This document shows positions 9,242-25,740 of a stretch of DNA of 28,341 nt, one piece after another (position 1 is the first letter of the stretch; the number at the start of each line of letters is the position of its first letter). The stretch covers positions 1 to 28,341 of the IMG/VR virus record IMGVR_UViG_3300042485_004775. The stretch is one strand, 5' to 3'. A program made the translations under genes and the position numbers. Origin of the DNA: a virus. The notes beneath the pieces were generated by a model, which worked only from the letters and a program-made list of their open reading frames with translations, was not told the DNA's origin and searched no databases.

Positions 9242-12200
9242 TCACGCGATGATTGCAACTTTGCGGACGGTGCCGCCCGCGTCCTTGATCTCAATTGACC
9301 CGGTGATGGGGGCATCCGCGCTGGCGGCGAATGTGCCGAAGCGAATGCGCCCGGTGCCTTTCGAATTGAGGCGCAGATCGATGTTGGTATCGTCACCTGC
9401 CGCGTCGATCTGCGGTGGCACGCCCGCCGCCCCTGAAGTGAATTGCATGCGGTTGACATCGTTCGCAGCGGCCGACACGAACAACACCGATTTCCCTGAA
9501 TTATTCAGCAAGTTGAGGCCGCCGCTCTGGAACTGGAGCGTCAGCTTTCCGCCAGCTGTATTGTTGGCCGACTTGATCGACGCAGAAATTCCCCCACTGC
9601 TTTCATACCAGTTGAAGGCGTATCCGTTGGCCAGCGAGATCGCCTCGCCGGTCGGGATCGAGCCGGAGCGGAACTCAATGCCGGTATTCCAGCCAAGCGC
9701 GTGATTGGTGGTGAAGGTGATCCCCACTGTGGACGGGTGCGTAGCAGCTGGGCCGAAGCTGTTGTCGCCACTTCCAACCAACATGATCCCGCGGGAGGCT
9801 GCGACCGGGCTGCTATAGGGCGTCGAGAAAACGTTCACCCCAGAGGCGTGCTTGATCGCGAACTCCATCCCCCAGGTGGTGGTTGTGGTACTGGTGTGCT
9901 GCGCCTCGATTATGCCGCCCCAGCCATGGCCCGAACCATTGTTGATGATGATCGATCCGAAGCCAATCGCTTCCCCAGCACCCGCTGACAGCCCCGTTTT
10001 CGCTGCAAACACGCCGGCATAACGGCGCTCGGAAGTCATCGAGAGAAATTGCGCGTTCGCCGCCAGGTAGGCCGGGCCATCAGCAGAGGTTTTAAGCCAT
10101 GAGTCCCCCGCGTCCGGCAGCGAGCCGCTGCCTGCAAAATGTGCGGCGGCATGGCCCACGAACAATCGATCGGAGAGACGCCAAATATTCGCACCATTTC
10201 CTGACCCGGCAAAGAAGCCGCGCGTCATATCGAACTTGCCGCCGTCCGTTAGCTGGTCCCATGTCATGGATGGGTCAGGCAACCATGCGGCGGATGTCGT
10301 GGCGAAGGGGCTAGACTGCTTATACTTGCTGGGCGGCTTCGGGATGAAGTTCAGCCCACCGCGTGTGTTCGCTGACACGAAAGCCGCCCGGTCATCAGCG
10401 GCATTATCGCCTTGCGCACCGAAATCCTGCGGAGTCACGAACTCTTTCGCTTTGTCCGTCAGCGTGCGAGTGACCGCACCTGCCCCAGCCTGCCGGAAGC
10501 CGACGCGATCCGCGCCGGCAGGCGCGGCCAACTCGGTCGACACGACAAAGCCAGGCGCACCCGCGCTGCTGTAATAGTCCTCCGGAATATCCGTGCCGTT
10601 GGACAGTCGGAATTTAGGCAGGCCGACAGGCCAGTTATGGAACACGCAATCGCGGATGCGCAGATTGGTGGCGGCGACATCGAAAAAGCCGCCGCCGGCA
10701 ATCGTCGCAGAGCCCTCATATACGAAGGTCAGATTTTCCAGTAGGATGTCATCGCAGCCGGAGAGCGCCGCCAATACCCATTCGAGTTCCGCCCCGTCAA
10801 AAATCCTGAATGTCTGACTGCGGATAGCCACCTTGCGGGCGTTGGTGAGCTGGATTTGGTTCAGCGACGGGGAGCCTGGCAGCGCGGTATCAAATGCGTG
10901 CCAGCCGCCACCGTCGATCGTCAGGCCTTCGATGCCGTCGAAATGAGCGATTGCACCGGTGCCCTGATAGTTGAAACCAGCCCCGATCGAGAAGAACGGC
11001 GGCTTCCACCCGCCCTGTTCGACCTTGAAATCAATCAGAGGGCCGATGTTCGTTCGGCCGCGCAGGTTGGTGAAGGTGATGCCTTCCAGAGACCCGCTAT
11101 TGCCTGGAGGGCCGAGCACCTCAAACTTGAACGCCGTGTCCTCGATCTCGGCCAGGACGTCCTCGAAAACATATTCGTAGGATTTGTCAGCATTGTCATG
11201 GCTGATGAGATGCACGCCGATTTGGGGCCCGGCGGCGCGCTCGGCTTCAGTGCCGAACACATTACCCTGGAAGCGGACCGAGCGCATGGTCGACCGCGTC
11301 GCGCCCGTGAGCTCCACAAACTTGTTGAAGCCATAGCCGCCGTTGAAAGTCCCGAACCGCACATTCTCGAAGAACACGCCCGGCCCGCTCTTGTCGAACT
11401 TCGCCTTCACTGCCGTCTGCGAGGTACCGATGCCAGCGCCCGCCGCAGATATTCCAAGGTTTTTTAGCGTCAGGCTGGCGAAATATTCCTGGCTATCGAG
11501 GCCGTGCTCGATCGCGCCATGGGTGCCGGACACGAGCAGACGTGTCGCGAGCATCCCCGCGCCCTGATATTCGATCGCCTTCCCGCCCGACTGCAACGGT
11601 GCATCAAGCGGATAGTCCTGCTTGACCAGCTCGACGCGCTGGCCATTGTCCGCCGGCGCTTCTGCGCGGGCCTGGATCGCCTCGCCGGTTGGCGCGCTGG
11701 CCAAATCAAGCTGGCCGACACGCTTGCCGATGGTGTCGGGATCATATTCCTCGCCATCCACAAAGCCGATGAGGCCAGCGCCCGTCATCGGATCGGCGAG
11801 TTCCTGGCGGAGAAACGGATCGGAATCCGTGCCCGGCTGAAATTCCCAGCTGCCGTCTTCCTTGACGCGAGGAAACAGGCCAGCCGCCGAGCCGCCGCCG
11901 ATCGGCGCGCGGGGCGCTCGCTCGATCTCGCGCTTGAGATAAAGGGCGCGCGTGGCCGACCGGTCATTGGCCTCGTTGACGACGGAAGGCAGGAACGGCT
12001 GGCCACTTGCAAAATCGATCGACTGAAGGAACGACGGCTCGGAAATGACATAGACCGACCCGGACACGGGCGCGGCAGAGAAGGTGGCCGTGCCGCCCTC
12101 GGCGGCGAGCGTGACGGTATAGGCGGACGGGTTGATCCAGTCATCGACACCATCAGCGTCGCGCAAGATGACAGCAACGTCGTCGACAGACACCGCCTTG

Positions 12201-12277
12201 AACGTGAACGGGAACGCGACCGTCACCCCGTTGGCCTCATATGGCCCGGAAAAGGTGTCGGTCGATGAAACTGCCAT
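9242..12277 (-). CDS. Tail fibre / tailspike with T7 gp17-type N-terminus, 1011 aa
   Basis: Residues 1-130 (FPFTFKAVSVDDVAVILRD, NEANDRSATRALYLKREIE) match the T7 tail-fibre N-terminal domain, which attaches the fibre to the tail tube. Residues about 200-580 carry repeated strand/turn units typical of a right-handed beta-helix. A second beta-helix entry, DFGAQGDNAADDRAAF (about 616-631), is the pectate-lyase-3 style opening of many tailspikes. The C-terminus (NIDLRLNSKGTGRIRFGT and ADAPITGSIEIKDAGG) is of a kind shared by alphaproteobacterial phage fibres. The protein recognises, and may cleave, surface polysaccharide; no catalytic residue can be assigned. GGAGG five bases before ATG 12277 sets the start. 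A copy of the GTCGATTCAA motif lies 48 bases upstream. Confidence 0.9.
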   Translation of the reverse strand: MAVSSTDTFSGPYEANGVTVAFPFTFKAVSVDDVAVILRDADGVDDWINPSAYTVTLAAEGGTATFSAAPVSGSVYVISEPSFLQSIDFASGQPFLPSVVNEANDRSATRALYLKREIERAPRAPIGGGSAAGLFPRVKEDGSWEFQPGTDSDPFLRQELADPMTGAGLIGFVDGEEYDPDTIGKRVGQLDLASAPTGEAIQARAEAPADNGQRVELVKQDYPLDAPLQSGGKAIEYQGAGMLATRLLVSGTHGAIEHGLDSQEYFASLTLKNLGISAAGAGIGTSQTAVKAKFDKSGPGVFFENVRFGTFNGGYGFNKFVELTGATRSTMRSVRFQGNVFGTEAERAAGPQIGVHLISHDNADKSYEYVFEDVLAEIEDTAFKFEVLGPPGNSGSLEGITFTNLRGRTNIGPLIDFKVEQGGWKPPFFSIGAGFNYQGTGAIAHFDGIEGLTIDGGGWHAFDTALPGSPSLNQIQLTNARKVAIRSQTFRIFDGAELEWVLAALSGCDDILLENLTFVYEGSATIAGGGFFDVAATNLRIRDCVFHNWPVGLPKFRLSNGTDIPEDYYSSAGAPGFVVSTELAAPAGADRVGFRQAGAGAVTRTLTDKAKEFVTPQDFGAQGDNAADDRAAFVSANTRGGLNFIPKPPSKYKQSSPFATTSAAWLPDPSMTWDQLTDGGKFDMTRGFFAGSGNGANIWRLSDRLFVGHAAAHFAGSGSLPDAGDSWLKTSADGPAYLAANAQFLSMTSERRYAGVFAAKTGLSAGAGEAIGFGSIIINNGSGHGWGGIIEAQHTSTTTTTWGMEFAIKHASGVNVFSTPYSSPVAASRGIMLVGSGDNSFGPAATHPSTVGITFTTNHALGWNTGIEFRSGSIPTGEAISLANGYAFNWYESSGGISASIKSANNTAGGKLTLQFQSGGLNLLNNSGKSVLFVSAAANDVNRMQFTSGAAGVPPQIDAAGDDTNIDLRLNSKGTGRIRFGTFAASADAPITGSIEIKDAGGTVRKVAIIA

Positions 12278-12325
12278 TCTTGCCTCCGAGCGGATGGCAA
12301 GTGGGTAGGGTGGCTGTCAGCTATC

Positions 12326-12338
12326 TTGAATCGACGGG
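12326..12338 (-). promoter_or_regulatory. GTCGATTCAA motif, copy 1, before the tail-fibre gene
   Basis: On the minus strand this reads CCCGTCGATTCAA, ending 48 bases before the tail-fibre ATG. The same 13 bases occur at 25728-25740 before the tail tubular A gene. It lies in the 152-base gap between the divergent fibre and zinc-ribbon genes. It is a candidate late promoter or another control site. Confidence 0.5.
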
Positions 12339-12429
12339 GGTAATGTTGACCGCTTCTTATTGAGGAGGGGCATGACTCGACTCTGAGATCTACCTCTGCC
12401 GTAATGCATCGACGAGTCGGGAGGGATTT

Positions 12430-13044
12430 TTGCAGCACTTAAGAGCAGTCTGTCTGAGCTGCGGCCACACATTTGAAGTGCCCAACATTGGCTTTGGTGG
12501 CGGGATGATGATGACGCTTGCCGCCGAGGCAACGATCTCCACTAAATGCCCAAAATGCGGCCAGGAAGCCCGCATCCCGAGCGGCACATATACGGTGATA
12601 GATGACGCCCTTCATCACCTAGATGGCCAGATTTTCAAACGTGTCCAAGTTGATCGCTTGCGCGCGTATCGTGATGCCCTTCTTGCTCAGGGCAAGCAGT
12701 CGGGAGACGCGATCCCTGATGAAGTCATCGATGCAGTGTCGAGTATTTCGCCTGTCTTTGGAGCCTCGATCAAGTTGCTTAAAGAGGGCAAAGGCAGCTG
12801 GATATTATTGATCCTGCTGCTTCACCTCGTCCTTTTGCGGTGCGATGGCGGGGACGGTGGAAGCTTTGTCACGATCAACAACGACCGGCGGACTGAGATC
12901 GTGCACAACTACAACGTCACGAACGTGACGAACATCTACAGTCTCAAGCCTCCCACGGTCAGTGATGTTCACCAGGCCAATCAGGGCGTAGGCGCCGAAT
13001 GCCCCAAGCCCGCCGGCAAAGGCGCCGGTCCCAAAAAGGATTAG
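12430..13044 (+). CDS. Zinc-ribbon membrane protein, plus-strand cargo gene, 204 aa
   Basis: Cys8-x2-Cys11 (CLSCGHTFEVPN) and Cys40-x2-Cys43 (CPKCGQEARIPSG) make an N-terminal zinc ribbon. Residues 50-120 are a helical region. Residues 123-138 (GSWILLILLLHLVLLR) form a membrane span, followed by an Asn/Thr-rich tail. The start is TTG 12430, five bases after GGGAGG; a later ATG would delete the first zinc knuckle. It runs against the surrounding virion genes and is AT-richer, both signs of a moron. From base 12805 on it overlaps a minus-strand frame of 92 codons. I do not recognise the family; an immunity or exclusion role would be inference. Confidence 0.7.
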   Translation: MQHLRAVCLSCGHTFEVPNIGFGGGMMMTLAAEATISTKCPKCGQEARIPSGTYTVIDDALHHLDGQIFKRVQVDRLRAYRDALLAQGKQSGDAIPDEVIDAVSSISPVFGASIKLLKEGKGSWILLILLLHLVLLRCDGGDGGSFVTINNDRRTEIVHNYNVTNVTNIYSLKPPTVSDVHQANQGVGAECPKPAGKGAGPKKD

Positions 13045-13083
13045 CCCAGTACGCGTAGTTATCAAATTCTTGGCCTGCGGCAT
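12805..13083 (-). CDS. Small membrane protein coupled to the ejection gene, antisense to the zinc-ribbon gene, 92 aa
   Basis: ATG 13083 shares one base with the TAA of the upstream virion gene (TAATG) and has AGAGGA nine bases before it, so translation by coupling is credible. Residues 12-39 (TGLILFGTGAFAGGLGAFGA, YALIGLVN) form a glycine-rich membrane helix. The rest is polar, Val/Asp-rich and ends in a charged Gln/Lys tail. It overlaps the plus-strand zinc-ribbon gene tail-to-tail by 240 bases, so one of the two may be an artefact or both may be real. No family is recognised. A virion or lysis-related membrane role is possible from position only. Confidence 0.5.
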   Translation of the reverse strand: MPQAKNLITTRTGLILFGTGAFAGGLGAFGAYALIGLVNITDRGRLETVDVRHVRDVVVVHDLSPPVVVDRDKASTVPAIAPQKDEVKQQDQ

Positions 13084-15794
13084 TACTGTGATTCCTCTTT
13101 GATCTTACCCTTCGTCAGCCCGCGATACCATTCAGCAGCCGTCGCGGGATCCTGCTCGCCATTGGCGACGTCGACCAGGAACTGGGTAGAGGTAGCGATC
13201 TGCCCCGGCACAAGCCCGGTCCAATAGCCCGCCACCTCCAGCGCGTTGCGCACCGGCCGCTTCGCATCCTCGCCTTCGATCATCTTGTGGACGTCGCGCG
13301 CAGATTCCACCAGCGACTGGAACGAGCGCTGGATCGGCGTGAACTGATAGTCGAACGGCTTGCCCCCGGTCAGGCCCTCGACGAGCGGCGAGGCCACATC
13401 GCGCACGCCAGGGATCGGGCCGAGCGACTGGAACAGCATCTGCTTGAACGCCCAGAAGCCCCAGTCCTCATCATCGTCGGGGCCATTGCCGCCCAGGATC
13501 TGCGCCATGAGCGGCGGCACAACGATCACCCACCAGGCGCGCGCCAGCACCGCCGGCACATCGCCGACCTTGCGGATGCCGGCGATATCGCGGCCCAGCG
13601 TCCGCTGGCGCTGATAGAAGGCACTCATATAGCTGTAGAACATGGTCATGAGCTTGAGCGCCTGACCCCATTGCCCGGTACCCCGCGCGATCGCCGCGAG
13701 ATCCTTGGGCGATCCTGACCCCTGCGACATGCGCACCGCCTTGTCAGCGGCATAGACCGACGCCTCTTCATCCATCCCGGCGGCCTGCGCCTTGTTATAG
13801 GCGCCGATCCAGGTCGGGACCACGACCATGCGGTCCATATAGCCGATGCCGTGGAAGGCGAACCGCTTGGCCGCGTCCAGCTTCTGCCCGCGCCCCTGCA
13901 TCTGCTGGAGCGTCAGGCGGATGTCGCGATCGAGCGTGTCCATCCGCGATCGCACCTCGCCCGATTTGGCCATGACGGTGTTGAAAGTGTCGATCGGGTG
14001 CGCGGTCGCCTGCGCGATGGCGGCCGTCACCCACTTCGAACCGACATATTCGAAGCTGTTGGAATAACCGGCGAGCTGCGTCACCATCGTGGTGAAGCGG
14101 AAGCCCATGCCCACGACGGTGGCATTCGAGCGCAGCTTCTGCATGAAGGCGCCCACGCCCTCATTGCCCGCGCGCTCCATCGCCCAGCTGTTCGCGACAT
14201 ATTTGAGCCAGGGGCGGAACTGCTTGCGGATCTCGGGCCCGAGCGTGTCGTCGATCGCGCGCATGACGCGCTCGGCGCGCAGGAACTTGTCAGCCTGGAT
14301 GATCGCTTCGCGGTGGGTGATATCGTGGATCACCTCGCCCAGGTGGCGATTGATGACGCCCAGCTGCAGCAGGATCGGTCGCTTGACCTTCTCGCTGCGA
14401 TCCTTGGTCGACGAGGCGCGGGTGCTGGCGCGCGTGTACCCCGCTTCGAGCAGGTCAGACCCCTTGCCGGCATGCTCTTCAGCTGCATAGCTTTTCGCGC
14501 TGTCATAGATGGCGGGATAATAGCCGCCGCGGAACGTGCCGTGCGGCGTCACCACCTCCAGCGCCTCGACCTTGTCCGGCTCCACGCCGTTGACGCGCCG
14601 CTCCATCGCCGCGGTTTCGGGCCAGAGCGTTTCGACGATGTCCCAGATATTCTGGACGAACTGCCAGTCCTGCTCGGTCAGTTCGCGGTTGAGCACCTCG
14701 CGCACCGATGTCTCGCGCCAGCCGTAGCCGTCGACCAGGCGCTGGATATTGCCCTCGTTGCCCATGTTGAGCGCCATGGCGATCAGCTGCTCGCGCTTCA
14801 TCTGGTAAGGCTGGCCGGTGTCACGGTTGAACAGTGCCGGATCGGAGAAGCGCTCCGACCAGCGTCGCAGCTGCTTCCGATCAAGCTTGGCGAACTCGTC
14901 GCGGACACGAGCATGATAGTCCGCGACCATGGCATTCTCGCGGTCCTGCGCGTCGGCTAGCGGCCGGAACACGATCCGGTTGAACACGCCGTTGCTGTTG
15001 CCGGCGTCGAGCCAGTCGAACACCTGCTCCATCTTCAGCAGGGAGGCGTCGAACGCCGCGATCTTGCCCTTGATGTTGTCCCACTGGCTGGGCTCCATCA
15101 GGTCGGACGGCGGGCGCTGCTTCATCGCGGACAGGCCGGTCACCGCCTCCGACACGACCATCTCGAAATCGGCATGCTCCCGGCCATCGATCAGCGTCTG
15201 CTTGAGCTTGCCCAGGTGAATGATCTGCTTCACCGCCTCATCGAGACCGATCAGCTTTTCGACCGTCAGGCGCGACCAGTGCGTCTTGCCGAGCGATTCC
15301 GCGAAGGACGGCGGCACCACGACATCATAGCCCTCCGCCTGGCGCTGCGCGGCCCAGGCCTCGAAACTTTCCTGCCGGTTCAGCGAGCGCTGGGTGCGCT
15401 CCTTCATCTCGACCTGTTCGAGCAGCAGCTGCGCCCGCTCCAGATAATCCTGATCGACCGACTTGACGGTGCGGCGCTTGGCCCATTTCTCCAGCCGGCC
15501 GACCGCCTCATCGACCATGTCGGCGCCGCGCCGGGCGGCTGCGACCAGCGCATTGTTGAGCATCTGGCTCTGCTTCTGGCGGAATGCTTCGTCATGGTCG
15601 CCGGCGATCACCGCTTCCATCGCCGACTTGCCGGCCTTCGCCGCGGCGCGCTCATAGCGGATGATGGCCGAACGGCTGGCAACTTCGCGGACCTTGCCCT
15701 CCATCACCTGCCGCTCGGCCCAGCTTTTCGCCACGCTATAGGGGGTGACGCGCTGCCCGGTCATCCGGCCCAGCACGCGCAGCTCAGCACCCAT
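13083..15794 (-). CDS. Giant ejection (gp16-like) protein, C-terminal part, 903 aa
   Basis: This is a large helical protein with long charged helices in the first 400 residues. A C-terminal region (MTMFYSYMSAFYQRQRTLGR, then AWWVIVVPPLMAQILGGNGP) contains a hydrophobic membrane-type segment, typical of the large internal virion proteins of podoviruses. Such proteins leave the capsid at infection and form the DNA-ejection channel across the cell envelope. Gene order (after the gp14- and gp15-like genes, before the fibre) supports the T7 gp16 analogy. The frame overlaps the preceding 1124-aa gene by 34 bases in a different frame, and homologous-looking sequence continues smoothly across that point. 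The two are therefore probably halves of one gene separated by a -1 shift. The ATG at 15794 is internal to that ancestral gene. Confidence 0.75.
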   Translation of the reverse strand: MGAELRVLGRMTGQRVTPYSVAKSWAERQVMEGKVREVASRSAIIRYERAAAKAGKSAMEAVIAGDHDEAFRQKQSQMLNNALVAAARRGADMVDEAVGRLEKWAKRRTVKSVDQDYLERAQLLLEQVEMKERTQRSLNRQESFEAWAAQRQAEGYDVVVPPSFAESLGKTHWSRLTVEKLIGLDEAVKQIIHLGKLKQTLIDGREHADFEMVVSEAVTGLSAMKQRPPSDLMEPSQWDNIKGKIAAFDASLLKMEQVFDWLDAGNSNGVFNRIVFRPLADAQDRENAMVADYHARVRDEFAKLDRKQLRRWSERFSDPALFNRDTGQPYQMKREQLIAMALNMGNEGNIQRLVDGYGWRETSVREVLNRELTEQDWQFVQNIWDIVETLWPETAAMERRVNGVEPDKVEALEVVTPHGTFRGGYYPAIYDSAKSYAAEEHAGKGSDLLEAGYTRASTRASSTKDRSEKVKRPILLQLGVINRHLGEVIHDITHREAIIQADKFLRAERVMRAIDDTLGPEIRKQFRPWLKYVANSWAMERAGNEGVGAFMQKLRSNATVVGMGFRFTTMVTQLAGYSNSFEYVGSKWVTAAIAQATAHPIDTFNTVMAKSGEVRSRMDTLDRDIRLTLQQMQGRGQKLDAAKRFAFHGIGYMDRMVVVPTWIGAYNKAQAAGMDEEASVYAADKAVRMSQGSGSPKDLAAIARGTGQWGQALKLMTMFYSYMSAFYQRQRTLGRDIAGIRKVGDVPAVLARAWWVIVVPPLMAQILGGNGPDDDEDWGFWAFKQMLFQSLGPIPGVRDVASPLVEGLTGGKPFDYQFTPIQRSFQSLVESARDVHKMIEGEDAKRPVRNALEVAGYWTGLVPGQIATSTQFLVDVANGEQDPATAAEWYRGLTKGKIKEESQ

Positions 15795-18700
15795 GACCTC
15801 GCCATGCGGTCGGACTGGACGGCGGCCAGCGCCTCTTCCTGGATGCTGCCGTCGGTGAACGGATCGCCATAGCGCTCCAGCATGATCTGGCTGACTTCCT
15901 GATCGATCATCGCCTTGCGAACCGACCGCTTGTCGCCATTCTCCCGCATCTCGCGCCGGCGGACCTCGATGCCCATAAGGGTGCGGACCATGTCGTCAGC
16001 CGACGGGAAGCCCGCCATCTCCGCGACGTCGTCGGGGCTGGCGCCGTTCTCGCGGTGGACCGGCGGCACCTGGCGCGGCAGCATGCCGGTGGCGTCCTCG
16101 CCATAATTGTCGCGGACCCACTCGCTGTCCATGGGGCTGACCTTGAGCAGCTGGAGCGCGCGGAACTCGGGCAGGGCGTCGATGCGGGCGGTGACGGTGT
16201 CGCGCACATCCTCCTCGCGCTCGCGCCATTCCTTGGTGACGCGGCGCTTCACCGCGTTCATCGTTTTGGCCAACATGCGGTCCTGCGCCTCTTCGCGCGC
16301 GGTTGCGGTCAGGCCCTGATAGGCGGCATATTCGGCCGCGGTCATCGATGCCGGCTTGTCGGGGAAGAGCGCCTCCAGATTCTGCGCGGCGATTGCGTCG
16401 GCCAGCTCTTCGTCCGATGCGACCAGCCGGTCCATCACCCCGCGGACATCGTCGCTGATCTCGGAGCGCAGGCGCGACACGCTGTTGTAGAGCGAGATCA
16501 TCCAGGCCTTGAAGGTCTGGAACATGCGCTGCATGCCGGGGGAGGGGGCCTTACCCTCCATCAAATACCGCTCGACGCCGCGCGCCCAAAGCTCATGGGC
16601 GTCGACCGGGATCTTGCCATCCTCGATCGGGTAGCCGGCGGCCGCGAACCAGTCCTGGACGATCTGCCAGTCATCGCGCACCTGCTGCGGCGCTTCCGGA
16701 TCGGCAGCATCCTCGCGCAGTTCCTCCAGCCATAGATGCCCGGCTTCATGAAGGAAGGTGGACTGGTCCTGCGTCTGGAACAGTTCGATGATGGCGCCGG
16801 CGCTTTGGCCGCCGGGGAACAGGATGCGACCGCGCGGGCTATCCTCACCCTGCATGAGGGCATCGCCCCCCGACTGTTCGGCGGCATAGGCTTCCACCGC
16901 GGCGCGGATATCGCGGCGGCTGGCCGCGTCCGGATCGATCCCGCGAGTTTCCAGCAGCGCGCGCAGCTCGTTGGCAGCGTCGCGCACCGAGCGCTCGCGC
17001 GCGACTAGGTGACGATCGCGGCCGGCAACCCCTTCGGCAACCGCGTCAAGCAGGTCGTTGGCGCTGGGGCGCTCCGCCATCTCCGGGAAATAGCCCGCTT
17101 CCCACGCGCGGGCCGCCCAGGCGTCGGCGCTATATTCATTCTCGCCGAGGCCGCCTTCGTCAATCAGCTCGCCCTGATCCTTCACCAGCTTGCGCCGGCC
17201 GGGCTTGCCCCTGTGCCAGGCGTCTGCGCCCATGGCGCGCAGGTCGCCGCCGGTGTCGACGATCCCGCCGCCGCGCGCGATGAAGTCCATCAGCGACGGG
17301 CCCAGATTCTGCGACGCGTCCTTCTGCCGCTTCATGACATCGATGGCGACGTCGAGCTGGTCCGCCTTCTGGATCGCGGCGATGTTCTCGGGCAGCACCT
17401 GGCGCACCTGCAGCGCGTCATATTCCTGGCCGGTCAGCTCGCGCCCCATGCGGCTGGCCCGCGTCACGGCGCGCTGGGTCAGAAACTCGGCGTTCTGCTG
17501 CGCCATCGATGGCGACATGCCGGCGGTGGACAGCTTCTCCACGATCGTCTGAAGCAGCTTTTCGCGCGGGGCGCCCAGCGCGCGGGCGGCGCGTTCCTCG
17601 TCGGCCATGCGATCGGTCAGGTCCGCCATGACGTCGGCCATGGCCTCGTCGAAGGTCTGCGCCTCGCGGCGGGACATGCCGCCAGCCGACAGGCGCATAT
17701 CCTCCTTCAGCGCATCCCATGCCGGCGTGCCCGCCAGTTCAGACACGGCCGTCTCGACGGGCAGCACCCAGTCGCCGCCGGTGACGACTGCGTCATCAAT
17801 CTCCGACCGCCAGCGGTCGAAGTCGCCGTCATAGGCGTCGCTCTGCATATAGGCCTGCACGGCCTCGGCGGGGATGTAGACATTGTCCGCGTCGGCATCG
17901 TCGGCCATCTCGCGCACCAGGTCCGCGAAGGCGGCAGTATCGCGTCCCTTGAGCTTTGACACGGTGACAGCTTCCCCCAGCTGATCAATCGCTGCACCTT
18001 CGCTCTGCGCCCGGCGTGAGGCGATGACACGATCGGCCATCTTGCCAGCCGCGCGCGCAGTGCGCTCGGTCGCCAACGTGATGCCGGCGGTCGCGCCAAC
18101 ACCGCCGACGGTAGCGACCAGCGTTGCGGCGGCCGCCTCCGGCCGCTCGGCCAGATATTCGCTAAACGGCTTGTCCGGATTGAGCGCCGCCCATTCATTG
18201 AGATCCTGAAGGATGGTCGCGATCTGTTCGCCGGGGATCTCGGACTTGATCTGATTCCAGAAGGTGCGAAGCAGCGGTGCTTTACCGGCGACGTCGTTGA
18301 CCAGATGTCCGATCGGCAGGCGCTCGGTGGCGACCTCGATGAGGCCCTGCGACAGCGCATAGACACCAGCGCCAAGGGTGGACAGCCCTTGATCGCGCGC
18401 CTTCACATATTCGCCGCCGCCCGTGCTAAGCCCGGCCACACTCGCGCCGGCCGTCGGGCCAGCGACCAAGCCGACGCCAACCGAGGCAAGTGATGTCGGG
18501 ACGCTCTCGATGCCCTGCAGCAGGTTGCGCGCGGTCCAGTTCTCAACCTGCGGTCGTGCGCTCGCCGACATCTGCTGCCCTTCGCGGGCGCGGCCGAGCG
18601 CGAAATCCGACACGATCTGGGGAAGCGTGCGCACGCCGGCGCGGCGCTCCGCATCCGAGCCAGGCGTGAGCAGGCCGATCGCGTCCGCCGCTCCGCCGAT

Positions 18701-19135
18701 CGCGCCCCAGATTCCACTGGTTGCCTGAAAGACGCCAGCCTCAAGCGAGCTTCCGATATTCTTCAGGCCGTAGAACGCTTTGCCGATCAGGTTGAGATTG
18801 TCATAATCATCCGCGGCGACGGTCGCATTGCCGGGCTTTGCCGACCAGCGCCCAACCGCTGGATATTGTTGCATGACTCCCTTCGCCTTTGCGGCGCGGG
18901 CTTCAGCTTCAAACGCCGGGAGATTGCCGGCGACGGTCGATGGCGGGAGGCCGCGGGCTTCGGCGATCGTGCGCGCGCGGGCCGCCTGATCCGGCTGGGC
19001 CACCTTGATCCTATAGGCCAGCTCGTCGTCGCGCTGCTGCTGGAGTTCAGCCTCAAAGGGGTCGGTCTCGGATTGTGCCGGCACCGTCGACCGGCTGCGC
19101 ATGGCGTCCAGATACTTATAGGGATCGGTCGCCAT
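15761..19135 (-). CDS. Giant ejection (gp16-like) protein, N-terminal part with HEAGH motif, 1124 aa
   Basis: Long, mostly helical, Ala/Arg/Asp-rich protein. The N-terminal third has hydrophobic glycine-rich stretches (GIWGAIGGAADAIGLL, GVGLVAGPTAGASVAGL) that may insert into membranes. Residues 793-803 read STFLHEAGHLWLEEL in context, with His796, Glu797 and His800 forming an HExxH zinc-peptidase motif, as seen in large polyvalent phage and prophage proteins. The ATG (19135) shares a base with the TAA of the M23 gene. The end looks abnormal: after AVQSDR the frame runs MARSWVLSCACWAG and stops, while the -1 frame gives HGEVMGAELRVLGR and stays open for 900 codons. The truncation is probably due to an indel or to frameshifting. 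Ejection function is inferred from position and size. Confidence 0.75.
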   Translation of the reverse strand: MATDPYKYLDAMRSRSTVPAQSETDPFEAELQQQRDDELAYRIKVAQPDQAARARTIAEARGLPPSTVAGNLPAFEAEARAAKAKGVMQQYPAVGRWSAKPGNATVAADDYDNLNLIGKAFYGLKNIGSSLEAGVFQATSGIWGAIGGAADAIGLLTPGSDAERRAGVRTLPQIVSDFALGRAREGQQMSASARPQVENWTARNLLQGIESVPTSLASVGVGLVAGPTAGASVAGLSTGGGEYVKARDQGLSTLGAGVYALSQGLIEVATERLPIGHLVNDVAGKAPLLRTFWNQIKSEIPGEQIATILQDLNEWAALNPDKPFSEYLAERPEAAAATLVATVGGVGATAGITLATERTARAAGKMADRVIASRRAQSEGAAIDQLGEAVTVSKLKGRDTAAFADLVREMADDADADNVYIPAEAVQAYMQSDAYDGDFDRWRSEIDDAVVTGGDWVLPVETAVSELAGTPAWDALKEDMRLSAGGMSRREAQTFDEAMADVMADLTDRMADEERAARALGAPREKLLQTIVEKLSTAGMSPSMAQQNAEFLTQRAVTRASRMGRELTGQEYDALQVRQVLPENIAAIQKADQLDVAIDVMKRQKDASQNLGPSLMDFIARGGGIVDTGGDLRAMGADAWHRGKPGRRKLVKDQGELIDEGGLGENEYSADAWAARAWEAGYFPEMAERPSANDLLDAVAEGVAGRDRHLVARERSVRDAANELRALLETRGIDPDAASRRDIRAAVEAYAAEQSGGDALMQGEDSPRGRILFPGGQSAGAIIELFQTQDQSTFLHEAGHLWLEELREDAADPEAPQQVRDDWQIVQDWFAAAGYPIEDGKIPVDAHELWARGVERYLMEGKAPSPGMQRMFQTFKAWMISLYNSVSRLRSEISDDVRGVMDRLVASDEELADAIAAQNLEALFPDKPASMTAAEYAAYQGLTATAREEAQDRMLAKTMNAVKRRVTKEWREREEDVRDTVTARIDALPEFRALQLLKVSPMDSEWVRDNYGEDATGMLPRQVPPVHRENGASPDDVAEMAGFPSADDMVRTLMGIEVRRREMRENGDKRSVRKAMIDQEVSQIMLERYGDPFTDGSIQEEALAAVQSDRMARSWVLSCACWAG

Positions 19136-21228
19136 TACCAGAAACGCCCCTTGCCATTTTGATAGGCGGTCGCGATCTGCTCGTCCGTCGGATCGCCGCC
19201 ATAGGTTTTTTTCCAGCCGGACACGATGCGCTGGCGGACATTGTCGGGCACGTCGCTCGCCTCCAGCTCAAAGCGCCGCTTGGTGCGCTGCGCCTGGCCA
19301 GTGGGAATGCCGGCGAAGGTGCGGTTGACGGTGAAGGTCACGTCGCGCGTGGCAGACTGATAGGCCCGATAAAGCTCGTCGTCGGTCGGATTGCGCTTGC
19401 CGCCCGTGAGGGCATTGATCTCGCTCTCCATGATCTTCTGTACGGCGACGCGCTTTTTGCGATCATCTTCCTTGCCGCCGGTCAGGCCATCCTCGACGCC
19501 AAATGTCGAGATGGTCGACGCGACCTTGCTGCGGATCGATTTGTCAGGATCGCCCTTGATGATCTTGGCCTGCTCGACCAGCAGCCCCTGCATCTCCGCG
19601 CGGGTGACCTGCCCGGCAAATTTGCCCAACGGGGTCGCCGCGAACTTTTCCGGCTCCAGGATGCGCAGCAGCTCCAGCGATGTCGCTGCCGAACCGTTGG
19701 CTTCGACGCTTTTGGGCTTGGCGTTCGATTTCGCGACGCCGATATAGGAGCGGGCCGCGTCGGGGGAGAGGGCGTTGCGGATCGCGGCAGGCATCTGCGA
19801 AATGTCGGTGAAGCCATCGCCCCGATTCAACACCCACTCGCTGGCGCGGCGGTCAGCATCGGCCTCTTCGCGGGCTTTCAGGCTATCACTGAGCGATACG
19901 CGTCGGCGGATCTCATCCTTGGCGCGCTCACGGCGCTCGAATGTCCAGTCGTCGCGAGCATCCACCTTGGCCAGCAGGCCGTCGAGATCATAGCGCGTGG
20001 CGGACTGCTGCGCCGATCCGATAACCTTCGTCGGGTCCACCGTCTTGCCGTTCTGCCGCACGACCATATGCAGGTGCGGGCCGGTCGACCGGCCGGTCGA
20101 TCCCACGCCGCCGAGCTTGGTGTCGGGCGTCACCATGTCGCCAGGCTTCAACGAACTGGCGGCCTGCATGTGCGAATAGCTCGACGTCGTGCCGTCGCCG
20201 TGATCGATGATGACGAAATTGCCGCTGGCCGAGTCATGCCCGGACTTGATCACCTTGCCGGCAGCGGTGGCGAAGATCGGCGTGCCAGCCGGCGCAGGGA
20301 AGTCGACGCCATTATGAGTGTGCCCGCCGCCGCGCGCCTCGCCATATTGGCCGGAGATACCGCGCCCCATGCCGCGCAGCGGATCGGCATAATTGACCGC
20401 GCGGTCGCCGCCATCGACCGAGGCGATGCCCATGAACGCATTGGCGTCAGAAGCCGCCTCGCGCGCCTGGAGCGGCGCTTTCAGGTCGGCCCAGCGCGAG
20501 GTACTGTCCTTCGACAGCATGTCGGCCTCATGGGCTTCGAGATAGGCCTTGGCCATCTCCACGTCCTCGCCAGCCATGTACCGGTCGAAGATCGCGGCAT
20601 GTGCGCCGGATACGGCGGAGCGCTCCTCCGCCTTGATCACTTCGGGATCAGCAAGGCCGGCGAGCTCCGCGTTCGTGCGCGACTGCGCCCTGATCTGGGC
20701 AAAGAACCCGTCCCGCTCGGCCGGATCGTCGGCGGCGATCGCGCTTTCGATGAAGTTGCCCAGCTTCGCCTTGCCGGTTTCCTGCTGATAGACGCGGCTC
20801 TGCTGTAGCGCATAGCTCGACATCTCATTGTCGGCCGACATGCGCAGGCGTGCGAGCTGCGGCTCCAGGTAGCGGCGCGTGCGGCGGTCAGCCTGCGCCA
20901 ACGTCGAAGCGAAAGCGTCCTCGATCGCTTTGCCGGCGGCTGGGCGATGCTCCAGCGCGCTCTTGCCCATGCGCGTCTTGAGGTCCGACACGGCGCCGTT
21001 CGCGGCAGAGCTGGCGCTCAGATACAGATTGTCGGCATTGGTGCGCGCCAGATCATCTTCGATCCGGGCCTGCACCTGCGCGGCATCGCCGATTGCGCCG
21101 CCCAGATGTTCCAGCCCTCGGGCTATGCCACCGGCTATGCCACCGCCATTATCGACGGGGCGGAAACGGGCACTGGTGGTCTGGACCGGCCCCACAGTGG
21201 GACTGCCATACTGAGGGATACGCGGCAT
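19135..21228 (-). CDS. Internal virion protein (gp15-like) with M23 peptidase domain, 697 aa
   Basis: Residues about 285-400 form a LytM/M23 endopeptidase domain. HNGVDF supplies His305 and Asp309, SYSHM follows, and GPHLHM supplies His385 and His387; these are the full zinc-ligand and catalytic set. It should cut peptide cross-links in peptidoglycan so that the ejection apparatus can cross the wall. The flanking regions are long helices with Arg/Glu repeats, as in T7 gp15-type internal core proteins. ATG 21228 follows GGGGCAAGAG, and a GTCGATTCAA motif lies 50 bases upstream. The gene is coupled by TAATG to the giant ejection gene. The peptidase sits here, whereas T7 carries its wall-cutting activity (a transglycosylase) on gp16. 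Confidence 0.88.
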   Translation of the reverse strand: MPRIPQYGSPTVGPVQTTSARFRPVDNGGGIAGGIARGLEHLGGAIGDAAQVQARIEDDLARTNADNLYLSASSAANGAVSDLKTRMGKSALEHRPAAGKAIEDAFASTLAQADRRTRRYLEPQLARLRMSADNEMSSYALQQSRVYQQETGKAKLGNFIESAIAADDPAERDGFFAQIRAQSRTNAELAGLADPEVIKAEERSAVSGAHAAIFDRYMAGEDVEMAKAYLEAHEADMLSKDSTSRWADLKAPLQAREAASDANAFMGIASVDGGDRAVNYADPLRGMGRGISGQYGEARGGGHTHNGVDFPAPAGTPIFATAAGKVIKSGHDSASGNFVIIDHGDGTTSSYSHMQAASSLKPGDMVTPDTKLGGVGSTGRSTGPHLHMVVRQNGKTVDPTKVIGSAQQSATRYDLDGLLAKVDARDDWTFERRERAKDEIRRRVSLSDSLKAREEADADRRASEWVLNRGDGFTDISQMPAAIRNALSPDAARSYIGVAKSNAKPKSVEANGSAATSLELLRILEPEKFAATPLGKFAGQVTRAEMQGLLVEQAKIIKGDPDKSIRSKVASTISTFGVEDGLTGGKEDDRKKRVAVQKIMESEINALTGGKRNPTDDELYRAYQSATRDVTFTVNRTFAGIPTGQAQRTKRRFELEASDVPDNVRQRIVSGWKKTYGGDPTDEQIATAYQNGKGRFW

Positions 21229-21266
21229 CTCTTGCCCCTGAAGCGGATGCTGGATACCTATGGGGC

Positions 21267-21626
21267 ATGGGACAGGGATTGAATCGACTGGCGATCATCG
21301 CCGTGCTTTTGCCACTCGCAGCGTGTGGACAAAGTCCTGCGAAGAATGGACAAGAAGCTGTCCAGCCGAAGATGACGGCATCAGACAGTCGCCGACTGGA
21401 TGATCTCTTGCGCAAATATGCTTCGATCAGATCCCAGTTTCGCGTCGCCGGCCTGCCGGAGAATTACTCCAATTTGCAGAGCGAGCGCCTGATTATAGAG
21501 CAGGAGATCGAGCGAATAGAGCCACTCAATCTCGACTTGGCCAAGCAACGAGAAGACGCCCTTGATGCCCAATTCCGCGCATCCGAGAATTCGCGGCAGG
21601 CCGATAAAATTCTCAAGGATAGTTGA
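21267..21626 (+). CDS. Small lipoprotein, plus-strand cargo gene, 119 aa
   Basis: The N-terminus MGQGLNRLAIIAVLLPLAAC is a lipoprotein signal peptide with lipobox LAAC and Cys20; the Gly after it favours outer-membrane sorting. The mature part is a charged helix pair (SDSRRLDDLLRKYASI and SERLIIEQEIERIEP) with coiled-coil character. It runs opposite to the virion genes and fits the gap almost exactly: it ends two bases before the 3' end of the gp14-like gene and starts 38 bases from the divergent gp15-like start. The ribosome site (TGGGGC) is poor. Phage lipoproteins of this size often block receptors or superinfection; here that is inference. The frame is open further upstream, but that part lies inside the gp15-like gene. 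Confidence 0.7.
   Translation: MGQGLNRLAIIAVLLPLAACGQSPAKNGQEAVQPKMTASDSRRLDDLLRKYASIRSQFRVAGLPENYSNLQSERLIIEQEIERIEPLNLDLAKQREDALDAQFRASENSRQADKILKDS
21279..21288 (-). promoter_or_regulatory. GTCGATTCAA motif, copy 2, before the gp15-like gene
   Basis: The minus strand reads CAGTCGATTCAATCC, ending 50 bases before the gp15-like ATG. The site falls within the first codons of the plus-strand lipoprotein gene, so it must satisfy both roles if both are real. Confidence 0.45.
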
Positions 21627-21628
21627 CC

Positions 21629-22132
21629 TTAGCTGAACCCCTGGCTTTTCATCTTGCTGTACTGCTGCGCCCCACCGAGCGCCGTTCCAGCAGCCGAGAA
21701 CAGGCTTCCAACGAAAGCACTATTCCCTCGCTGCTTCGCCGCCGAACCTTCTGCGCGATAGTTTGCGCCCTCGATATCGAACCCGCGCACATTCTCCGCA
21801 CCCTGCCGGTAGATCCGACCCGCGTCTTCACGCGCCAGCATCTGGGTGTCGGCCGTCAGATCAGCCGCATTGCCGAAGTTCACATCCAGTCCGCCGGCCG
21901 CCATGGCGACCCGCTGCTGACCCTGAAGCTGAGCAACCTTGCGATAATGCTGAAGAGCGGCTTCGCGCGTGTTTTGTTGCTCCTGCTGGCCCGATTCCGC
22001 CGCAAGCTTCGCGTTTTGCGCTGCAACCTGCGCCTGATAATTTCCCTGCGCGCGCGCCTGAAGCCCGCCGTAGACGGTACCAACGGCGGTGACAGCTGCG
22101 GCCGCGACCGCCAATGCAGCAGGCCCACACAT
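21629..22132 (-). CDS. Internal virion protein, gp14-like, 167 aa
   Basis: The protein starts MCGPAALAVAAAAVTAVGTV with a hydrophobic Ala/Val helix. A long Gln/Ala-rich helix (QARAQGNYQAQVAAQNAKLA) follows, then a glycine-rich end (FVGSLFSAAGTALGGAQQYS). This is the recognised pattern of podovirus internal core proteins equivalent to T7 gp14, which forms the outer-membrane part of the ejection channel. Its length is close to that of T7 gp14 (196 aa). ATG 22132 overlaps the stop of the gp13-like gene. The frame is open further upstream, but that only shadows its neighbour. It converges with the plus-strand lipoprotein, with two bases between their 3' ends. Confidence 0.82.
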   Translation of the reverse strand: MCGPAALAVAAAAVTAVGTVYGGLQARAQGNYQAQVAAQNAKLAAESGQQEQQNTREAALQHYRKVAQLQGQQRVAMAAGGLDVNFGNAADLTADTQMLAREDAGRIYRQGAENVRGFDIEGANYRAEGSAAKQRGNSAFVGSLFSAAGTALGGAQQYSKMKSQGFS

Positions 22133-22587
22133 CAGCGCGCCATCCAGAACTGTCGAAAGGGAACGCCGCCCACCATTTGCTCCTCCGGTTCGACGGTGAA
22201 GCCCCAGCGCTGCAGCAGCCCGATCGCCTTTCCGTTGGCGCTGGACACTAGGTTTCCGGCCCATCGGCTTGAATCGACAGCCTGCGCGATGAGGCCCGGC
22301 CCCCAGGACAGCAGCTCGCGCCCATGGCGGTAGACCTCGTCTGTCCCAAGAAACCAGACAGTGGACCGCCGATCGAGCGCAGACCAGGTGATCGCGCCGA
22401 ACATCGCCTCCGGCCGGCCGTCAACCAGCGCGGTCCAGCAACGATCCGACAGCAGGAAGCCCTGGCGCAACGCATGCTTGGGGGAATGGCCCATCGCCTC
22501 GCACTCCAGCCGGTCAATGGCACGGATGCGGCTGGCGATCGGACCGACATGGGTGATGCGGGCCGGAACGACCTCGACTTTAGGCAT
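22132..22587 (-). CDS. DUF2833 (T7 gp13-like) protein, GNAT-like fold, 151 aa
   Basis: The sequence has the plan of phage gp13-like DUF2833 proteins: a short N-terminal segment (PARITHVGPIASRIRAIDRL), a central ALVDGRPEAMFGAI strand pair, TVWFLGTDEVYRHGRELLSW, and a C-terminal GKAIGLLQRWGFTVEPEEQM that looks like the end of a GNAT acetyltransferase fold. In T7, gp13 is needed for virion assembly and sits in this same place between the tail tubular and internal core genes. Whether it retains any acetyltransferase activity is unknown. The start overlaps the 3' end of the tail tubular B gene by eight bases, and the stop overlaps the gp14-like ATG. Confidence 0.85.
   Translation of the reverse strand: MPKVEVVPARITHVGPIASRIRAIDRLECEAMGHSPKHALRQGFLLSDRCWTALVDGRPEAMFGAITWSALDRRSTVWFLGTDEVYRHGRELLSWGPGLIAQAVDSSRWAGNLVSSANGKAIGLLQRWGFTVEPEEQMVGGVPFRQFWMAR
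22269..22278 (-). promoter_or_regulatory. GTCGATTCAA motif, copy 3, inside the gp13-like gene
   Basis: The minus strand reads CTGTCGATTCAAGCC, 136 bases before the gp14-like start. It is the only copy of the motif placed wholly inside an upstream minus-strand gene, so it may be coincidental or an internal promoter. Confidence 0.3.
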
Positions 22588-24403
22588 TCACGATCGGATC
22601 CAGATAGACGCCGAGCAGGGTGAGGGGCAGGGGATCGGTCTGCTTCACATAGACGGAAGCCTGCCCACTCACGACGTTGGGCGAATCCATGAGATATTTG
22701 CCGTCCTTCAGCGTATCGACCGTGCCCCAGGGCTCATCACCGCGCGACTTGATCTCGAACAGCTGCGACGGCTCCGTGCCATTCTCGCGGCCGGCGCCGG
22801 CAAGGATGTTCCGGCTTTGACGGAGATGCAGGACGATCTCGCCCGGCTGTTGCTTGCGGGCGGCATTGGATCCCGCGCCGCCGCTGAATACCACCGGCAT
22901 CGTCTGAATCGCGACGTCGAACGGGATGCCAAACGTCGCCTTCCGTACCGATCCTGCTGATGCAGGCAGGGTGATGACGCCGTTCTCGACGGTCAGCCCC
23001 TTCAGAACGAAGCCATCGACCAACCCCCAGACCTCACGCCCCTCCAGGTGATACATGTTGCGGAAGACATTGCGAGGTTCCTCATATTCGAACGACACCG
23101 CGCAATCGAGAAAGCAGCAGTCGGCCACATCATCCCAGCGCGCCGACGCCATGCGCTCGATGAACGTCCGCTGCACCCCGCTCACCTCGCGGCGCACGAC
23201 GAGGTAGACGCGATCTTCGCCATGCTCGGATATGGCGCAACAGGATTGCACGAAGCCGTCAGTCTCGCAGACCGTCCAGCCCCAGACTTGCTGCGCCTGC
23301 TCCCAAGTGAAGGCGAGCAGCTTGCCGTCGTTTCGAACCGCCCAGATGATGGAGCGCGGTTCCTGCGCATAGCACCAGGACACTATGCTGAAGCCGTTGA
23401 ACATGTGCGGCGAGAAGATCGTCACGTCATCCGATGTCAGGCCGTCGACCTCGAACTTGTAATTGATCGACCGCACGCCCCCGCCGACCGATGGCGTGTA
23501 GAAGACGACATTGTCGACTACGAGCGGGGAGAGGCGCGAGGAGCCGCGACCGATCTGCCGGCGCACGGTGGCCGGTGGCGAGGCGGTGAGATATCCGCCG
23601 TCCGCGCCGCTATCGATCCGAAACAGGCTGTCGGACGTCAAGGCGAGAAGGCTGGTCGTGGCCACGAGCTGGTTGATCGCGTTCACCCGGCCGGCGTTCG
23701 CCGCGATCGCGATACTGTCGTCGGCGCGAAGGGGGATCGACTGGTCCATATTCTCGAAGTCGGCCGTGCGGCTTCCCCAGATCGCGTTCGGACTATTGCG
23801 CGATCGCCCAAGGAACAGGCGCTGCTCAAAGAATGTCACGGTCGACGGATAGTTGCCTGCGCCCAGGAACGGGTCATAGGCTTCAGGCGGCGCGGTGCTG
23901 AGATCCGGGCCGACATTGTCATCCACGAATTCAAGGGCGTTTGTGCTGCCGATATAGCCATAGAATTGGCTGCTATCGGCCTTGTAGACCTTGTAGCTCA
24001 CCGCCCCGGCAGCGGCGGACCATGTCAGGAAATTGTAATTCCGCTTGAGCGAAAGGTCATTGTAGGCCGTGATATCGGCCGGCGAGGCGCGACTTTCCTG
24101 CCCGTCCTCGTTGATCGACGTCACGCAGTATCGCGCGTTGCGGGGGAAATAGGCAGCGCCACCATTCTCGGAATCGGTGTTGGGTATATGCACCTCGACG
24201 GCGACACCGGTCGGGGGCTGGATCTTGGGCGCGAACGATACGGTGGCGAATGACCATGCGTCGTGCGCGGTGCGATTCAGGCGCTCGACCGGATGATCGA
24301 GATGCGCGAAATACATCGTATCGGCCTGCTGCTCGAAATCGATTTCGTCCAGCTCCACACCGTTATAGGGCGTGCCGGTTCGGAAGACGCGGGAAACGCC
24401 CAT
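22580..24403 (-). CDS. Tail tubular protein B (gp12-like), C-terminal part, 607 aa
   Basis: The start, MGVSRVFRTGTPYNGVELDE, followed by DFEQQADTMYFAHLDHPVERL, is a block that normally lies about 200 residues inside tail tubular protein B (T7 gp12). Later blocks (NYPSTVTFFEQRLFLGRSRN, ALTSDSLFRIDSG, IWAVRNDGKLLAFTW) are diagnostic of that nozzle protein, which forms the tail tip through which DNA leaves. Together with the preceding 217-aa gene the total is 824 residues, close to the 794 of T7 gp12. The ATG shares a base with the stop of the N-terminal part (TAATG), so the two chains would be made by coupled translation. The gene is otherwise intact. Confidence 0.88.
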   Translation of the reverse strand: MGVSRVFRTGTPYNGVELDEIDFEQQADTMYFAHLDHPVERLNRTAHDAWSFATVSFAPKIQPPTGVAVEVHIPNTDSENGGAAYFPRNARYCVTSINEDGQESRASPADITAYNDLSLKRNYNFLTWSAAAGAVSYKVYKADSSQFYGYIGSTNALEFVDDNVGPDLSTAPPEAYDPFLGAGNYPSTVTFFEQRLFLGRSRNSPNAIWGSRTADFENMDQSIPLRADDSIAIAANAGRVNAINQLVATTSLLALTSDSLFRIDSGADGGYLTASPPATVRRQIGRGSSRLSPLVVDNVVFYTPSVGGGVRSINYKFEVDGLTSDDVTIFSPHMFNGFSIVSWCYAQEPRSIIWAVRNDGKLLAFTWEQAQQVWGWTVCETDGFVQSCCAISEHGEDRVYLVVRREVSGVQRTFIERMASARWDDVADCCFLDCAVSFEYEEPRNVFRNMYHLEGREVWGLVDGFVLKGLTVENGVITLPASAGSVRKATFGIPFDVAIQTMPVVFSGGAGSNAARKQQPGEIVLHLRQSRNILAGAGRENGTEPSQLFEIKSRGDEPWGTVDTLKDGKYLMDSPNVVSGQASVYVKQTDPLPLTLLGVYLDPIVNA

Positions 24404-25056
24404 TATGGTATCTGCTCGTGCGGGTTGCCGGGTTTCCAGCCGCCGCCACCGGTGGACGGAGGTGGAGGAGGATCCACAGGCGGGGGCACCGGCGGCTCGA
24501 CCGGGTCAGGGTCTGGCGGCGAAGTGCGTGTGATGCCGCCGGTCGCGCCGGTGAATGCGGGCATCGCTGAGGTGTCAACGCCGATCCGAAAGTTATTGCT
24601 ATCCACGATGGCGACCACCGGGAAGAACCTGAAATTAAGCTGATCGCCCAGCGCGCCATCGATTCCAGATAGGAACACGTCCTGACCAACCGAGTAGCCG
24701 TGCAGCGCCGCGGTAACACGCGCCTGCGCCTCATTGCTGATGCCGGTGATTTCCAGCTCTTCGTTGAGAACGAGGCCGCCGCCAGACGCAACGCGCATAT
24801 AGCCCTGACCCATTTCGAGCGCATAGGTCTGCTCAATGGAGAACTGGAACGGTAGCAGGCGAACGGGCTTGGATGCGTCGTAAACTTCAGCGACCAGCCG
24901 AGTGCCCGGCCGCTTTGTGACGCCGCCATATTTGAGGATGACGACGTTGCGCGCAAGGCGCAGGCTTTGCGCATAGGCGTCCACATCGAACCGGCCATAC
25001 AGGTCCGGCGCGATCTCCCCCTTGCTGAACGATGGTTGGGCCAGCCGATATTCCAT
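24403..25056 (-). CDS. Tail tubular protein B (gp12-like), N-terminal part, 217 aa
   Basis: The protein opens MEYRLAQPSFSKGEIAPDLY and continues SLRLARNVVILKYGGVTKRP and VRLLPFQFSIEQTYALEMGQ, the standard N-terminal blocks of the podovirus tail nozzle protein. It ends in a proline-rich then glycine-rich linker (PPVPPPVDPPPPPSTGGGG) and stops at TAA 24403-24405. In most relatives the chain continues into the block found at the start of the next gene, so this is the N-terminal third of a split protein. The ATG at 25056 shares a base with the stop of tail tubular A. The break falls in a flexible linker, which makes a working two-piece nozzle plausible. Confidence 0.87.
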   Translation of the reverse strand: MEYRLAQPSFSKGEIAPDLYGRFDVDAYAQSLRLARNVVILKYGGVTKRPGTRLVAEVYDASKPVRLLPFQFSIEQTYALEMGQGYMRVASGGGLVLNEELEITGISNEAQARVTAALHGYSVGQDVFLSGIDGALGDQLNFRFFPVVAIVDSNNFRIGVDTSAMPAFTGATGGITRTSPPDPDPVEPPVPPPVDPPPPPSTGGGGWKPGNPHEQIP

Positions 25057-25697
25057 CAGATACCAGCCCCCATTCGGGCATATTCAGCCTCACTGATGTA
25101 GGATGTCGTGCGGCGAGGGGAGCGGTTCTCACTCTCCGCTATTGCCCGCTGTTTGGCGACTTCCGCCTGCTTGATCAGATCGCCCTTGAGGTTGCGGCTT
25201 TTCTTGATCGGCATGGCCAGCCGTGCGGCGAGCTCCAGCGCGCAGGCGCGCGCGGTGAGCGGATCGATGACGGCCGGGTCCACCGCGTTGACCTGATATT
25301 CCAGGATTGCGTCGGCGACGTTGGTGTAGATCGAGCCGCCGGCGATGATGAAGGGCAGCTTTCCCAGCGCATCCCATGACGGGAAATTATAGGGGCCAGC
25401 CGCCGGAAGGTCCGTGCGCTGCTCGTCCACCTTGGGGAGAACGGCGATGGCGTCAGCCAGATCGGCCGGCTTGCCATAGCGATACAGCCACTCGCCTTTG
25501 CGGTCGTTAGGCTGGAGGGCAAGGGCGGTGCGCCGGTTGAGGAAATCGAAATCGGTCCAGGTCATCATCTCCGCGATCACGCGTGGATAATGCTGCTTGC
25601 AGTTGAAGGCGCTGGGGGATGCTTCGTCGATCGAGTTGATCGGGTCCGCCGCTATCTCGGACAGCGCGTCGTTGCAGATGTCGAGTTGGGAAGCCAT
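25056..25697 (-). CDS. Tail tubular protein A (gp11-like), 213 aa
   Basis: The opening MASQLDICNDALSEIAADPI, then CKQHYPRVIAEMMTWTDFDF and YRYGKPADLADAI, is characteristic of the T7 gp11/adaptor family that forms the ring joining the portal to the tail nozzle. ELAARLAMPIKKSRNLK and the C-terminal helix with SYISEAEYARMG complete the match. Its length (213 aa) is near T7 gp11 (196 aa). No clear Shine-Dalgarno precedes ATG 25697. An 81-base non-coding gap upstream contains a stem-loop and the GTCGATTCAA motif, suggesting that a new transcription unit begins here. Confidence 0.9.
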   Translation of the reverse strand: MASQLDICNDALSEIAADPINSIDEASPSAFNCKQHYPRVIAEMMTWTDFDFLNRRTALALQPNDRKGEWLYRYGKPADLADAIAVLPKVDEQRTDLPAAGPYNFPSWDALGKLPFIIAGGSIYTNVADAILEYQVNAVDPAVIDPLTARACALELAARLAMPIKKSRNLKGDLIKQAEVAKQRAIAESENRSPRRTTSYISEAEYARMGAGI

Positions 25698-25727
25698 GGC
25701 GATGGGCTATCGCTCGGCGCGGTCTTG

Positions 25728-25740
25728 TTGAATCGACGGG
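25728..25740 (-). promoter_or_regulatory. GTCGATTCAA motif, copy 4, before tail tubular A
   Basis: The minus strand reads CCCGTCGATTCAA, ending 30 bases before the tail tubular A ATG and identical over 13 bases to the copy before the tail fibre. It follows a stem-loop in the only sizeable gap of the capsid-to-tail region, the expected place for a promoter of the tail genes. Confidence 0.5.

Follow-up and report, generated by a model that had tools for sequence, protein, structure and literature searches.

Activator- or appropriation-dependent middle and late promoters in phages are exemplified by that of T4, in which a MotA box is combined with a sigma70 -10 element. Promoters of the T7-type polymerases appear as exact repeats ahead of virion genes. 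Phage sigma and ECF sigma promoters (phiEco32/7-11 type) use host core polymerase with a specificity subunit at bipartite or -10-type late promoters (PMC8948821). In Alphaproteobacteria, the methylated promoters of the GcrA/CcrM system carry GANTC within the promoter region (PMC7987155, PMC7403470); the motif reported for GcrA-activated promoters is YGAKTCG, and a prophage operon of Brevundimonas depends on GcrA (PMC7987155). CtrA-controlled genes of alphaproteobacterial phages illustrate that host-linked regulators are usable at phage promoters, and scans of such phages for GcrA motifs revealed no positional asymmetry (PMC9437464). For the phage group studied here, no late promoter was described in the open-licence literature that we searched.

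We propose that the 10-mer GTCGATTCAA forms the -35-like half of a class of late promoters in temperate-type podoviruses of sphingomonads with a T7-type virion (more closely, a BPP-1/BcepC6B-like virion), used by host polymerase and probably a phage specificity factor, a reading to which we give a probability of about 0.82. The arrangement resembles the T4 MotA type in that a short phage-specific element takes the place of the -35 hexamer at several promoters on one strand; it differs in sequence and in a -10 element reduced to CMTA, and no MotA or AsiA relative was detected. It shares a bipartite layout with the sigma promoters, GANTC within the promoter with the GcrA/CcrM type, and exact repetition ahead of virion genes with the T7 type. 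Unlike CtrA sites, it contains no TTAA-N7-TTAA, being another motif in other phages.

The window, by which we mean the whole stretch of DNA analysed, is a virus contig of 28,341 bases recorded in IMG/VR. Its minus strand encodes a protease/scaffold protein, capsid, tail tubular A and B, gp13-, gp14-, gp15- and gp16-like proteins, a fibre and lysis functions, and its capsid and tail proteins are ~33-37% identical to those of BPP-1, BcepC6B, phiV10 and Vibrio and Caulobacter podoviruses; the nearest phages are of the temperate BPP-1/epsilon15 type and not Autographiviridae. Sphingobium xenophagum NBRC 107872 carries a closely related prophage. Searched for Rfam families and tRNAs, the window gave no match. 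Two features of gene structure may be recorded here. The gp16-like protein of ~2,000 residues (phrog_9880), a single ORF in relatives, is spread in the window over two overlapping minus-strand frames (13083-15794 and 15761-19135), which may reflect a sequencing error or a real frameshift. Tail tubular B consists of two minus-strand ORFs (22580-24403 and 24403-25056), the first ending with a proline-rich tail, in the window and in every relative inspected, whereas in BPP-1 it is a single ORF. The genes and the elements assigned to them are as follows:

9242-12277, minus strand: tail fibre/spike gene (PHROG tail families), served by the site at 12326-12335
12295, minus strand: predicted +1 of the tail fibre gene, with an 18-base leader containing Shine-Dalgarno-like CGGAGG
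12306-12307, minus strand: TA of the -10-like element of the putative tail fibre promoter
12326-12335, minus strand: GTCGATTCAA, -35-like element of the putative tail fibre promoter (exact match; orthologous class)
19135-21228, minus strand: gene, served by the site at 21279-21288, for a gp15-like virion protein that has an endopeptidase-like domain
21248, minus strand: predicted +1 of the gp15-like gene, with a 20-base leader containing Shine-Dalgarno-like GGGGCAAGAG
21259-21260, minus strand: TA of the -10-like element of the putative gp15-like gene promoter
21279-21288, minus strand: GTCGATTCAA, -35-like element of the putative gp15-like gene promoter (exact match; orthologous class)
21629-22132, minus strand: gene for a gp14-like internal virion protein (phrog_418), served by the site inside the gp13-like gene
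22132-22587, minus strand: gene for a gp13-like internal virion protein (phrog_308), with one putative promoter inside
22249-22250, minus strand: TA of the -10-like element of the putative gp13-internal promoter
22269-22278, minus strand: GTCGATTCAA within the gp13-like gene, putative promoter for the gp14-like gene (exact match; orthologous class)
25056-25697, minus strand: tail tubular A gene (phrog_394), served by the site at 25728-25737
25697, minus strand: predicted +1 of tail tubular A, the A of its ATG, which by geometry would give a leaderless mRNA
25708-25709, minus strand: TA of the -10-like element of the putative tail tubular A promoter (106 of the 117 sites have an A here)
25728-25737, minus strand: GTCGATTCAA, -35-like element (-40 to -31) of the putative tail tubular A promoter (exact match)

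An exact scan of the whole window returned four copies of GTCGATTCAA on the minus strand and none on the plus strand, at precisely the coordinates that the first-pass annotation had given, and the 48, 50 and 30 bases that it had counted to the starts of the fibre, gp15-like and tail tubular A genes, as well as the longer word CCCGTCGATTCAA that it had read at both the first and the last site, were correct. It had placed these three sites in minus-strand gaps; the remaining copy, at 22269-22278, falls within the gp13-like gene and hence in no gap, 136 bases ahead of the gp14-like start, and is encoded with the rare Ser codon TCA. Allowing one mismatch added no further copy in the window. The expected number of copies is 0.07, and at least four were seen in none of 100 shuffles; four-copy one-strand 10-mers as rare as this one arose in ~3 of 200 simulated windows (~1.5%). 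Taken alone, and counting this look-elsewhere effect, the window is suggestive and supplies only moderately strong evidence; it is the comparative data from relatives that settle the reality of the repeated site. Moron-like genes lie on the plus strand beside the late promoter candidates, by eye a zinc-ribbon protein (12430-13044) and a lipoprotein-like ORF (21267-21626), the latter containing the site at 21279-21288 so that its start overlaps the putative promoter.

The first-pass annotation had suggested looking for the motif and its position in related sphingomonad podoviruses, and such a search bore it out: seven IMG/VR relatives, found via tail tubular A or capsid, each carry two to seven exact sense copies of GTCGATTCAA at orthologous places and on one strand only, and the reversed control motif is absent from all seven (0 copies). 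A scan of the collection for the bipartite form yielded more contigs of the same group, with sense sites only, while contigs with a single bipartite match occurred at chance level. Over all fetched phage contigs, leaving out the duplicate contig G001 and a second prophage described below, we counted 95 sense vs. 0 antisense copies of GTCGATTCAA, and 117 sense vs. 3 antisense copies of its core CGATTCAA. The sites fall into seven orthologous classes (ahead of a small membrane gene, portal, tail tubular A, the gp15-like gene and the fibre, and inside bbp19 and gp13), found in up to 16 contigs and always in the sense of the virion genes; the tail tubular A site has orthologues in 15 further main-clade contigs and reads NNCGATTCAA in outgroups. 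Four contigs without GTCGATTCAA, recruited by a profile of the winged-helix protein discussed below, have the same gene order and ~60% portal identity, and carry two to seven sense copies of CGATTCAA at matching places, preceded by CC, TC, CG, AG or CA. Because these outgroup contigs, which keep the TA and the leaderless geometry, vary only the leading pair, we regard the element as an eight-base core whose first two bases are clade-specific. The genomes of BPP-1 and Caulobacter phage SR18 contain no CGATTCAA, which means that the wider virion group did not inherit the motif from its common ancestor. Separately, SR18 (45,260 bases) has 0 GANTC sites vs. 81 in BPP-1, which is of similar length.

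Alignment exposed a second element. Across the first 40 aligned sites of the main clade, the 10-mer is invariant and the upstream sequence is unconserved apart from a C at -2, while 16 bases past the 10-mer comes C, A or C, T, A (CMTA). The A at motif position 30 is present in 40/40 of these sites and in 106/117 over all clades; it is preceded by T or C, the sequence between the two elements is unconserved, and at the bbp19-internal site CA or CC replaces TA, which counts against the proposed form. The ATG of tail tubular A begins at motif position 41 in 16/16 main-clade contigs, a placement that recurs in the outgroups and in contig G231, and that is seen in one contig each for two more genes (G002 for gp14, G229 for a gene ahead of portal). 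Taking the invariant A as -11 makes position 41 the +1, which implies that the tail tubular A mRNA would start at its own ATG and be leaderless. In the fibre and gp15 classes, position 41 is an A in the majority of contigs, and a short leader containing a purine-rich, Shine-Dalgarno-like sequence comes next; a few bases ahead of the motif, several of the portal sites show the end of a T run (CCCTTTTTCGTTG, for example) that resembles a terminator tail. The frame in which the motif is translated differs between the two in-gene classes, and both retain uncommon synonymous codons (TCA, 3.9% of Ser; ATT, 14% of Ile; CAA, 12.7% of Gln), which argues that the constraint acts on DNA and not on protein.

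We infer promoter function, the +1 and late timing from sequence, and the promoter would take the form NN-CGATTCAA-N18-TA-N10-(+1), NN being GT in the clade of the window, each copy starting transcription of one virion gene or short operon. The motif had been described as unlike sigma70, and a consensus scan agrees, with no sigma70-like pair (TTGACA/TATAAT) on the minus strand at the sites; a plain sigma70 -10 also fits poorly, since the second element is short (CMTA) and has no conserved T at -7. That it marks transcription starts is strongly supported by its bipartite form, its fixed distances to a TA and to the start codon, and its orthologous placement across the phage group. Of the roles that had been listed for it, an activator (or sigma-like) site at -35 is the best, and a phage polymerase promoter and an RNA processing site are unsupported. 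The sites provide a site-by-site predicted map of late transcription for sphingomonad phages, and predict leaderless virion mRNAs.

The motif is essentially confined to prophages in host DNA. All eleven copies of the 10-mer in the S. xenophagum genome (4.5 Mb) fall within two prophage regions, which makes it a practical flag for this prophage group, and among 200 genomes of the Sphingobium family the full motif occurred three times in the known prophage and once elsewhere, in one other genome. When the second half is loosened, matches to the core in the genus Sphingobium stem mostly from a palindromic repeat or from prophages; with these sources and the near-absence of the motif from the 200 genomes, a host regulon with this exact promoter is unsupported. 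The repeat itself, AGAGCATGATCCGATT..AATCGGATCATGCTCT, is intergenic, contains CGATTCAA and recurs across Sphingobium genomes.

That the promoter class is real and group-wide we hold with high confidence, and our confidence as to its reader is low. Most likely, host RNA polymerase would initiate with a specificity factor occupying -40 to -31, and this factor would probably be phage-encoded and come from the last part of the early operon. When the contigs are compared by gene content, one phage candidate remains by elimination: a winged-helix protein whose gene lies directly before those for terminase, and which is the sole non-virion protein in all contigs covering that region. In its model, the winged helix is extended by a helical tail, with weak similarity to the DNA-binding domains of LexA and MarR, and its gene position at the end of the early operon would suit a late activator. 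Yet this universally shared regulator diverges down to ~40% identity, and its recognition helix differs from clade to clade although the eight-base DNA core stays constant, for which reason we do not claim it as the direct reader; that the phage-encoded factor is this protein we would guess at even odds. If the winged-helix protein does read the core, it would be an unrecognised late activator.

Two further phage proteins were considered and set aside. A GapR-like early protein, weighed as the reader, is absent from some contigs; in an early protein at 8017-8658 of contig G004, and in relatives, a GapR-like DNA-binding domain is fused to an FtsK gamma domain. A phage N6 methyltransferase related to DpnA/CcrM-type enzymes was rejected as a required partner, as no relative of it was found in the motif-bearing contigs G007, G212 and G222.

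The main rival to a phage-encoded factor, raised by the GATTC in every site, is a methylation-read promoter, in which host CcrM would methylate the invariant GATTC (GANTC) and GcrA-sigma70 would activate, tying late genes to the cell cycle. The GATTC lies within CGATTCAA at all sites, GANTC is depleted ~3- to 6-fold relative to dinucleotide expectation in these contigs, and GcrA is encoded by both hosts and, in a search of the phages, gave no match above the cut-off; a host-encoded reader would explain an identical core despite diverged phage regulators, and the GcrA-dependent operon of the Brevundimonas prophage (PMC7987155) offers a precedent. Against this, the whole of CGATTCAA is conserved and not GANTC alone, the flanks CG..CAA being invariant, and the activating motif YGAKTCG ends in G (PMC7987155) whereas the sites read CGATTCA, always with A. 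Comparable promoters are also missing from the host family, and the GcrA-motif scans of other alphaproteobacterial phages (PMC9437464) lend no positional support. We consider activation by GcrA-sigma70 unlikely, if still the best of the alternatives, and slightly less likely again the broader proposition that late genes throughout the group are switched by CcrM-methylated GATTC, read by GcrA-sigma70 or a phage factor, so coupling virion production to the cell cycle. Were GcrA with CcrM methylation the reader, a link between phage late genes and the host cell cycle would follow.

Recognition by a host alternative sigma factor of the ECF kind is more doubtful. With its -35/-10 layout and the 16 bases that separate GTCGATTCAA from CMTA, the element looks like an ECF promoter, and sigma region 4 was not found in the phages: among 14 contigs, PF08281 gave nothing above the cut-off (the best match covered 27 residues, at E 0.008), which equally separates these sites from phage sigma-factor promoters, as no phage-encoded sigma factor was found. 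However, the family host genomes are without the motif outside prophages, and the additional core matches in the genus have the repeat and prophage origins given above. A promoter for a phage single-subunit RNA polymerase, to which the exact repetition upstream of virion genes would point as in T7-like phages, is very improbable, because a gapped -35/-10 layout with one-base spacer variation is of sigma type and the nearest phages are not Autographiviridae; PF00940 had 0 matches in 17 contigs, several of them fragments, in a search whose control gave no signal. No better placed is an RNA processing, packaging or Chi-like site without promoter activity, which a repeated word with strand bias might suggest, since the distances to TA and to the ATG are fixed, the tail tubular A start codon coincides with the predicted +1, and sites recur at seven shared gene boundaries throughout the group. 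Chance repetition within one window, for which the ~1.5% of simulated windows could be cited, is refuted by the 95 exact sense vs. 0 antisense copies among relatives and has a negligible probability.

The second of the two S. xenophagum prophage regions belongs to a different prophage-like element (contig C138:222000-240000), in which we found four sense copies with the spacing shifted by one base. It encodes an integrase, an AlpA-like regulator (by eye), CHC2-type primase-like and helicase-like proteins, TerS, TerL and gp15/gp16-like proteins, and the winged-helix protein was not found in it, a point against the proposed reading. The putative promoter precedes the AlpA-like gene, TerS, TerL and another gene, and the element may be a remnant, or a satellite, that draws on the same late regulator.
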